Shown: positions 28,611 through 30,944 of the stretch, one piece after another
Position numbering within the stretch: the stretch's first letter is position 1
Layout of the letters: each line of letters begins with the position of its first letter
Assembly: GCA_945882615.1 (NCBI GenBank)
Contig: CAMCWK010000008.1
Coordinates: forward strand, 1 to 64,000
Origin: Rhizobium sp. Q54
GTDB taxonomy: Bacteria > Pseudomonadota > Alphaproteobacteria > Micropepsales > Micropepsaceae
DNA length: 64,000 bases
Reading direction: 5' to 3'
Notes under the pieces: model-generated
Database searches by the model: none
What the model was told of the DNA's origin: nothing
The model's input: only the letters and a program-made list of their open reading frames with translations
Position numbers and translations under genes: made by a program

Positions 28611-29195
28611 TCACACCGCTTCGACCGCGGTCACTTCCGGCACATAGTGGCGCAGCATGTTTTCGATGCCGTTCTTCAAGGTCATCGAGGAGGATGGGCA
28701 TCCCGCGCAGGACCCTTGCAGGTGCAGCGAGACCACGCCGCTGGTGCCGTCAAAGCCCTTGAAGATGATATCGCCGCCATCCTGTGCCACGGCAGGACGC
28801 ACCCGGGTTTCGATCAGTTCCTTGATCTGCACCACAATGTCGGAATCCTCGTCGCTGTAGCTTTCCTCGGTTTCGTCGGCGCCGCCTTCCAGGAGCGGCA
28901 GGCCGGCCGTGAAATGCTCCATCACCGCGCCCAGGATCGCGGGCTTGAGATGCTTCCAGTCGCCGTCGCGCTTGGTCACCGAAATGAAGTCGGCGCCGAA
29001 AAAGACCCGGCTGACGTCGGGGATGGAAAACAGCGCCTTGGCCAGGGGCGAGCGCCCTGCGGAAGAAGCATCGGGGAAATCCGCCACGCTGCCTTCGCCC
29101 ATCACATCCCGCCCGGGCAGGAATTTCAGGGTGGCGGGATTGGGAGTGGATTCGGTCTGGATGAACATGGCGCCGCTCGTTGACTGCTGAGCCAT
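28611..29195 (-). CDS. Nfu-type iron-sulfur cluster scaffold/carrier
   Basis: A 194-aa protein with an N-terminal Nfu_N domain (MFIQTESTPNPATLKFLPG), a short acidic linker, and a C-terminal NifU-like domain with the cluster-binding C163-AG-C166 in LQGSCAGCPSS. It carries [4Fe-4S] clusters to target enzymes; MiaB, HemW and endonuclease III encoded in this window are such enzymes. The start is supported by GAGG 6 bases upstream of ATG 29195. It is the first gene of the leftward tsaB-rimI-fur-plsC-miaB block. Confidence 0.93.
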   Translation of the reverse strand: MAQQSTSGAMFIQTESTPNPATLKFLPGRDVMGEGSVADFPDASSAGRSPLAKALFSIPDVSRVFFGADFISVTKRDGDWKHLKPAILGAVMEHFTAGLPLLEGGADETEESYSDEDSDIVVQIKELIETRVRPAVAQDGGDIIFKGFDGTSGVVSLHLQGSCAGCPSSSMTLKNGIENMLRHYVPEVTAVEAV

Positions 29196-29240: not shown

Positions 29241-29283
29241 CTTTTACCCGGATGATATTGACTATAATATTTTATCCGGGTAA
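29241..29283 (+). promoter_or_regulatory. promoter with paired TTACCCGGAT operators upstream of DUF2239 gene
   Basis: Perfect inverted repeats TTACCCGGAT (29244-29253) and ATCCGGGTAA (29274-29283) flank a consensus TATAAT (29263-29268). The left arm overlaps where the -35 box would fall (CTTTTA, 29241-29246; 16-base spacing). The AT-rich core stands out from the GC-rich chromosome. The geometry fits a dimeric repressor that blocks the promoter from both sides. The regulator is not identifiable here. Confidence 0.65.
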
Positions 29284-29292
29284 TTAAAAGAA

Positions 29293-29793
29293 ATGCGCTA
29301 TTCGACCTTTTCCGGCTTCGACCATCTGGGCTCCGGCTCCTTGCACCAAGCCTATGTCGCCAGCCGGCGTATTGAAGGCGCCCTGATTTTCGACCGGGAA
29401 ACCGGGCGGGTGGTGGATATCGACCCGCGTTTTCCGCCCTCGGACGACGACGGCCCCCGGCCGGGCCGGCCCAAACTGGGGGTGGTGCCGCGGGAAGTCA
29501 CGCTGTTGCCCAAGCACTGGGACTGGCTGGCCACCCAGCCGGGCGGCGCTTCGGTCGCCCTGCGCAAGTTGGTGGAAGAGGCCAGCCGCAATCCCAAAGC
29601 CCAGATGCGCCAGCGCCGGGACGCCGCCTACCGCTTCGCCACCGCCCTGGTCGGCAATGCCCCGGGATATGAGGAGGCCATCCGCGCGCTGTATGCCGGG
29701 CAAAAAGACGAGTTCGCCGCCCATATCGAGGCCTGGCCGGCGGATGTGCGCGCCGAACTTGAGACGTTAACCGAAGAGGCGTTCGACTCTTAA
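29293..29793 (+). CDS. DUF2239 family protein
   Basis: A 166-aa protein matching DUF2239 by its core [20 protein letters not shown] followed by [19 protein letters not shown]. An N-terminal region with [12 protein letters not shown], a Pro/Asp-rich linker and a C-terminal helical part ([24 protein letters not shown]) follow. The function is unknown; the core has some look of a ribbon-helix or DNA-binding-like helix pair, but I would not claim it. It is preceded by a strong promoter/operator and overlaps the opposite SDHAF4-like gene by four bases at its end. Confidence 0.85.
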
Positions 29794-29984
29794 AAGTCCG
29801 AAACGATGCCCTTTTTCTCCCAGTCGCCATAGCGGGTGGGCTCCGGGCCTTTGGGTCCGCCCAATTCCGGCGGCAATTCCTTCTTAGATTCGGCGGCGCG
29901 GCGGGCCTCGGCTTCGGCCTTGGCGCGAGCGGCGGCCTCGGCGATCCGGGCGGCGACGGCTTCGGGCGATGCTTGATTGGCCAT
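29790..29984 (-). CDS. DUF1674/SDHAF4-family succinate dehydrogenase assembly factor
   Basis: A 64-aa protein with a basic/alanine-rich N-terminal helix and the diagnostic C-terminus [20 protein letters not shown] followed by IVSDF, shared with mitochondrial SDHAF4. Family members bind the flavinylated SdhA subunit before complex II assembles. Alphaproteobacteria are the bacterial home of this family. sdh genes are not in the window. It is convergent with the DUF2239 gene (4-base overlap) and divergent from htpX across 39 bases. Confidence 0.9.
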
Positions 29985-30023: not shown

Positions 30024-30944
30024 ATGAATACCCTTCGTACCGGCATGCTGCTCGCGCTGATGACCGGCATTTTCGTGGCGGTCGGCGCGCTGATCGGCGG
30101 CAGCTCGGGCGTGATGATCGCCTTCGGCATGGCGCTGGCGATGAACCTGTTCGCCTACTGGAATTCCGACAAGGTCCTGCTGCGCATGTATGGCGCGCGC
30201 CAGGTCGATGCCGCCAGCGCGCCCGAACTGTACGCCATGGTGGAACGGCTGGCGGGCAATGCCGGCCTGCCCATGCCCAAGGTCTACATCATGGAAAATC
30301 CGCAGCCCAACGCCTTTGCCACGGGCCGCAATCCGGAAAATGCCGCCGTGGCCTTCACCACCGGCATCATGGAGCAGCTTTCGCCCGAGGAACTGGCGGG
30401 CGTGGCGGCGCACGAGCTGGCGCATATCAAGCATCGCGACACGCTGACCATGACCATCACCGCGGTGATCGCGGGCGCGATCTCGATGCTGGCCAACATG
30501 GCGATGTTCATGGGCGGCGACCGACGCAACCAGCCGGGCGGCATCGCGCTGACGCTGGTCGTGTCGCTGCTGGCGCCCATCGCCGCCATGCTGGTGCAGG
30601 CCGCGATCTCGCGTTCGCGCGAATATGAAGCCGACCGCATGGGTGCGGAAATCTCGGGCCGCCCGCAATGGCTGGCCAGCGCGCTGGGCCGGATGGAGCG
30701 CAGCGTGCGTGCTGGTACGCCCAATCCCGAAGCTGACGCCAATCCGGCCACGGCGCATCTGTTCATCATCAATCCGCTGCATGGCGGCATCTCGGGCCTG
30801 TTCTCGACCCATCCCGCCACCGAAGACCGCATCGCGCGCCTCAACGCCATGGCAGGCAGCCAGCCGGCCGTGGTGAGCGGCGGGCGCGGACCCTGGATCG
30901 GTGGTCGTGAAGTGGTTTCTTCACGTCGCGGACCTTGGGGCTGA
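30024..30944 (+). CDS. htpX: membrane zinc metalloprotease HtpX
   Basis: Stress-linked M48 protease degrading misfolded membrane proteins. The 306-aa protein has two N-terminal membrane helices, the [10 protein letters not shown] zinc motif (HExxH) near residues 130-139, two further helices, and the downstream [13 protein letters not shown] segment with the third zinc ligand Glu. It ends with an arginine/glycine-rich tail. SD GGAGAA precedes the ATG. rsmB follows 25 bases later on the same strand. Confidence 0.95.

Follow-up and report, generated by a model that had tools for sequence, protein, structure and literature searches.

What does an inverted repeat over the promoter of a DUF2239 gene do, and which protein reads it? 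The window, i.e. the whole analysed stretch of 64,000 nucleotides, carries such an element directly upstream of a gene of this family. Twin near-palindromes precede DUF2239 genes in several phyla, and for this reason we consider the protein a probable, hitherto unrecognised regulator that represses the operon in which it is encoded.

A sequence-only reading of the window had described perfect arms 20 bases apart, forming one operator pair around a TATAAT box upstream of a DUF2239 gene. The arms are indeed there: TTACCCGGAT occupies 29244-29253, and the perfectly inverted copy ATCCGGGTAA occupies 29274-29283. The 20 bases that separate them (29254-29273) include the TATAAT. The assignment of the gene to DUF2239 is equally sound (PF09998, E 8.2e-54; 182.6 bits against a family cut-off of 25). 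The bare inverted repeat, in contrast to its conservation, is unremarkable for the window: counting overlapping cases separately, there are 47 perfect inverted repeats of 10 bp whose gaps span 3-40 bp, versus 5-7 in five 2-mer shuffles. Such repeats are thus about 8 times more common window-wide than in the shuffles. If a single mismatch is tolerated, the window has two occurrences of the 10-mer, where 2.09 would be expected. It is the comparison with relatives, not the repeat alone, that sets the element above chance. Across the genome of the window the exact 10-mer occurs five times, two at the element and three within long open reading frames, and the paired pattern including TTGAC gives a single match, the DUF2239 element. 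A looser pair pattern without TTGAC gives six matches (25 in the reversed control), namely the element on both strands and four other loci, from all of which DUF2239 is absent. Coordinates of the features are collected in the table.

Table. Features of the element and of the DUF2239 gene in the window
Feature	Position	Strand	Comment
Site 1, TTACCCGGATGA	29244-29255	.	11/12 to TTAYCCGGRTAA; directly upstream of -35; kept in relatives
Conserved TATTGAC	29256-29262	+	1.40-2.00 bits per column, 41 loci
Putative -35 hexamer, TTGACT	29258-29263	+	-35 assignment predicted
TATAAT of the sequence-only reading	29263-29268	+	Spacer, unconserved; 0.04-0.31 bits per column, 41 loci
Site 2, TTATCCGGGTAA	29272-29283	.	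12/12; spans spacer and start of -10; kept in relatives; mostly the retained one in single-site genes
Putative -10 hexamer, TAATTA	29281-29286	+	17 bp past TTGACT; TAAWW columns conserved here, 41 loci
DUF2239 gene (PF09998), 166 aa	29293-29793	+	Proposed regulator and target
DUF2239 codons 58-98, GRPKLGV..RE.TLLP..W.WL..Q.GGAS..LR.LV	29464-29586	+	Most conserved part; putative DNA-binding core

Upstream regions of DUF2239 relatives share a common layout: TTAYCCGGRT, 2-3 bases, ATTGAC, about 8-10 bases and TTAYCCGGRTAA, a consensus that was fixed only after the relatives had been inspected. We searched 250 nt upstream of 116 genes that were less than 90% identical and had been fetched by protein or family. 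The 12-mer is matched at 10/12 or better in 108 of them and at 11/12 or better in 87, while 74 have two sites of at least 10/12. The sequence-only reading had named the absence of the motif upstream of DUF2239 genes in relatives as what would count against an operator pair belonging to these genes; the motif is present, and its conservation extends far beyond the genus. In a wider set of 132 genes, in which motif-fetched loci are included, a site of at least 10/12 precedes 122 genes. The controls reach this level in 5 of 660 windows taken from other parts of these loci and in 7 of 132 regions after shuffling. In 80 of 103 pairs the spacing is 27-29 bp. One of the DUF2239 locus sets comprises the 80 top-ranking loci from a pool of no fewer than 595 candidates, found via the conserved protein core. 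Since the genes are related by descent, these counts are not independent. That the operator is real and conserved is, in our view, practically certain.

Alignment of the 41 loci whose sites are spaced by 28 bp, among them that of the window, places the promoter differently from the sequence-only reading. Columns of TATTGAC carry 1.40-2.00 bits, whereas those of the supposed TATAAT -10 box carry 0.04-0.31 bits; what is conserved is a -10-like TAAWW. hexamer located 17 bp after the TTGAC hexamer, where it overlaps site 2. The two elements of the proposed operator pair are both conserved, but as natural units they are better read as two separate 12-bp near-palindromes (29244-29255 and 29272-29283) than as arms of one operator. 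With the end of the putative -10 seven bases ahead of the ATG, the DUF2239 mRNA would be leaderless, its predicted start lying near 29293, i.e. at the ATG itself. Leaders are equally short in the nearest relatives. A generic sigma-70 scan did not call this promoter. Tight control of the DUF2239 gene, also claimed at the outset, stays a prediction.

Among 20 single-site genes, sorted by our own reading, 16 retain the site at the -10 (in one of them, L143, with short spacing) and four (L013, L192, L194 and L204) retain an upstream-type site. Eight of the 116 genes fall below 10/12. In L081, L111, L125, L129 and L199 the pair lies 467-967 nt upstream, where it heads a same-strand GIY-YIG gene ahead of DUF2239; the redundant loci L133, L136 and L142 likewise have it at the head of a GIY-YIG-DUF2239 operon, as do the motif-fetched L154 and L234 (383-414 nt upstream). 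L127 has two 9/12 sites and L004 one. At the acidobacterial locus L148 no site was found. A conserved operator in its own promoter, as expected of an autoregulated local repressor, is thus present for 108 of the 116 genes, and for five more it stands at the operon head. A variant site, in which TACGG replaces YCCGG, recurs in the distant loci L078, L097 and L254.

The sites keep to genomes with DUF2239. Among 96 genomes of the family 40 have a DUF2239 gene, and the paired pattern gives 20 matches, each in a DUF2239 locus; this strict pattern thus misses half of the 40. In 398 genomes of the phylum, DUF2239 is found in 43. The paired pattern occurs in 17 of these 43 (the strict pattern thus missing 26) versus 8 of the 355 genomes without DUF2239, which is the control level, as the reversed control gives 7 matches. 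Fifteen of the 17 matches are in DUF2239 loci, and the other two (L152 in G468 and L159 in G382) precede MATE genes, the former identified by Pfam and the latter by a profile partly built from itself; both genomes carry DUF2239 at another locus, where one or two sites precede it. A looser single-site pattern was matched in 22 of 43 genomes with DUF2239 and 4 of 43 without it, but it was not relied upon because its reversed control is high (14 and 29 matches). Its 30 matches in DUF2239 genomes comprise 15 at DUF2239 or an operon head, one at a MATE gene, one at L254 and 13 that look like chance, of which five loci were inspected (L237, L238, L253, L255 and L256). L254 (in G292) has a pair with one degenerate half (TACGG) before an alpha/beta hydrolase gene that lies at a distance from DUF2239 and may represent a third type of target.

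The element also accompanies the gene in other phyla. Two 12/12 sites precede DUF2239 on a Paenibacillus plasmid (L266, NZ_LC597664.1), and Deinococcus plasmids show 12/12 with 11/12 and 11/12 with 9/12. Matches of 12/12 and 11/12 are found in a Melainabacterium, two of 12/12 in an Armatimonadetes bin, two of 10/12 in a second one, and 11/12 with 10/12 in a Desulfovibrio bin, although bin labels may be wrong. Spacing is 19-20 bp in five acidobacterial loci (L087, L088, L103, L109 and L140) and 28 bp in Geothrix (L078), which has the TACGG variant. The presence of element and gene on plasmids suggests transfer. On the Paenibacillus plasmid DUF2239 is followed by DUF1330 and an alpha/beta hydrolase, beside a predicted tet(L). 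Two phage records contain DUF2239, both labelled Acinetobacter phage.

Neighbour genes were counted in the 116 loci by profile search, each profile being built from one to three proteins; 109 loci have 900 nt of downstream sequence, so the flank does not suffice in every locus. Clusters of neighbouring genes, made partly of out-of-frame reading frames, were set aside in favour of these counts. In 15 loci the gene immediately downstream of DUF2239, on the same strand, encodes a MATE protein. A GIY-YIG-like gene is near in 28, in 16 of them divergently upstream, while DUF1330 is near in five and a carotenoid oxygenase in two. The annotation of a Phyllobacterium plasmid record gives the order GIY-YIG, divergently DUF2239, then MATE; the GIY-YIG protein encoded there shares 43-50% identity with the two used in this analysis. 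A type II toxin-antitoxin operon was considered and rejected, as no small partner was seen to recur in most loci. In the genome of the window MatE matches occur at three places, none near the element. The genes around the element suggest no function for DUF2239: the divergent neighbour (28611-29195, minus strand) encodes an Nfu/NifU scaffold protein and the next same-strand gene (30024-30944, plus strand) an M48 peptidase. A convergent gene for a 64-aa protein (29790-29984, minus strand) belongs to DUF1674 (PF07896, E 1.7e-19), and its stop codon overlaps that of DUF2239.

Conserved sites lie over the promoter of these genes, are restricted to DUF2239 genomes and are linked to MATE and GIY-YIG genes, and the most economical candidate for the protein that binds this operator would be DUF2239 itself. 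We propose that the two near-palindromic TTAYCCGGRTAA sites, of which one directly precedes the -35 and the other spans the -10, are bound by DUF2239, which would keep RNA polymerase off the promoter. The operon would then be expressed when active DUF2239 drops or when some signal acts on it. Where a MATE efflux pump gene, a GIY-YIG gene or both belong to the operon, as in some lineages, DUF2239 would repress, locally, an operon for export or detoxification; in the lineage of the window, with no such partner beside the gene, it would control mainly itself. Judged from sequence, DUF2239 is a good candidate for the binder, and the effect of binding is quite likely repression, which is favoured because site 2 overlaps the -10 and is the one mostly kept in single-site genes. 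The explanation as a whole, that DUF2239 binds the operators and represses its own operon, we consider on balance probable.

The main rival is a separate transcription factor, encoded elsewhere and always accompanying DUF2239, which binds the sites and has DUF2239 as a mere target. Regulators encoded elsewhere in the genome are a common arrangement in bacteria, DUF2239 has no match to known DNA-binding families in Pfam or NCBIfam, and, as in an ordinary regulon, sites are also borne by MATE genes, a GIY-YIG gene and an alpha/beta hydrolase gene. Yet such a factor would have to vanish with DUF2239, for the paired pattern is at control level in genomes without it, would have the DUF2239 element as the only TTGAC-paired match in the genome of the window, and would have to cope with an element that travels with DUF2239 onto plasmids of other phyla. 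A MarR protein was the obvious candidate, its gene lying within the operon in Variovorax and near DUF2239 in L137, but none was found in L081 or L111, although operator and operon are the same there. The genome of the window offers at best a match of 31% identity over 75 residues. We regard a separate factor as unlikely.

It is still less probable that DUF2239 binds the sites in order to activate. Site 1, centred near -43 and directly upstream of the -35, would suit an activator, and four of the 20 single-site genes retain just this type of site; the preference of the other 16 for the site overlapping the -10 speaks against it, as does a -35 so near consensus that it needs little help. A chance palindrome, or a terminator or other RNA structure of the intergenic region, might be thought of in a window so rich in inverted repeats, but we give it almost no weight: the element is conserved over the promoter in distant genomes, no terminator-like site was found there, and the sites lie upstream of the predicted transcription start.

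If DUF2239 is the binder, its conserved core is where DNA contacts would be sought. Of 24 invariant columns in 66 sequences, 21 fall within residues 58-93. By eye this core looks like an AT-hook-like GRP followed by a ribbon-helix-helix (RHH). The GRP core does lie in a basic segment, with G58, R59 and P60 invariant in the 66 sequences, although so short a motif proves little. An RHH core is a tentative assignment, which we hold with slightly more doubt than belief. An AlphaFold2 model of the monomer (mean pLDDT 86.8, low confidence at 56-66) has helices at 73-80 and 86-98 and no strand at 66-72; the strand of an RHH would need a dimer in order to form. Modelling the C-terminal two thirds from a single sequence gave a poor result (pLDDT 59). 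The combination of AT-hook and RHH stays our own reading, because no sequence, profile or fold comparison supports the RHH. Searches of PDB sequences gave no relative; in one of them five chains appeared with E values of 0.11-2.7, and RHH is in the name of none. Beyond its own family, DUF2239 reaches the cut-off of no model in Pfam or NCBIfam, and no TetR or MarR family match in Pfam appeared among 23 members at E up to 1. Alignment of the core with 17 RHH_1-derived segments by hhalign gave P 0.17, with one segment (L229) plainly non-RHH and a core profile that is too uniform (Neff 1.8). Foldseek gave no match at E 0.001, and a second fold comparison, which may miss folds, had other folds on top and no RHH chain among its rows.

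Glycine in place of Arg67 was considered as an explanation for the missing operator of L148, but Paenibacillus L266 also has glycine and keeps two 12/12 sites. Apparent loss in members with VGRP instead of RGRP is explained by an operon head further upstream. Covariation between DUF2239 and its sites was not seen.

A broader reading, for which we see even chances, is that DUF2239 constitutes an unrecognised family of transcriptional autorepressors with a GRP hook and an RHH-like core. Their two-site operator, shared by several bacterial phyla, would travel together with the gene, giving a portable repressor module for export or detoxification operons (MATE, GIY-YIG, DUF1330, alpha/beta hydrolase). 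If true, proteins so far listed as a domain of unknown function, which occur in roughly one in ten of the sampled phylum genomes (43/398), would become transcription factors whose operator is known, and the MATE efflux operon that recurs beside them would be easier to approach. It is unusual for a cis element to be preserved from Alphaproteobacteria to Deinococcus and a Paenibacillus plasmid, and the element and the protein make an immediately testable protein-DNA pair. In PubMed Central we found no paper naming DUF2239, PF09998 or COG3644. Searches there with the operator 12-mers and longer pieces returned, by title, only rolling-circle replication, and among the matches listed for the 10-mers no title concerned such an operator; queries combining ribbon-helix-helix with MATE, efflux or autoregulation gave none on DUF2239 by title.

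Several known systems offer a comparison. Local autorepressors of the TetR/AcrR and MarR type have the regulator gene beside an efflux gene and palindromic operators over a shared promoter. DUF2239 resembles them where its gene stands beside an efflux gene and in its palindromic sites over the promoter; it differs in matching neither family (Pfam, NCBIfam) and in that the efflux gene is usually absent beside it (MATE in 15/116 loci). The AT-hook consensus centres on RGRP. Like AT-hook proteins, DUF2239 has a basic segment, RG[RP]GRPKLG, ahead of its core, and A/T runs flank each site; unlike them it has a single copy, and some members have VGRP yet keep their sites. RHH repressors such as Arc, MetJ and CopG are a further comparison; to these DUF2239 has no significant sequence, profile or fold match, and it possesses additional N-terminal and C-terminal parts. 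What it may share with them is, by eye, a short strand-like REVTLLP followed by two helices with a Gly-rich turn, together with putative autoregulation through repeated short operators.
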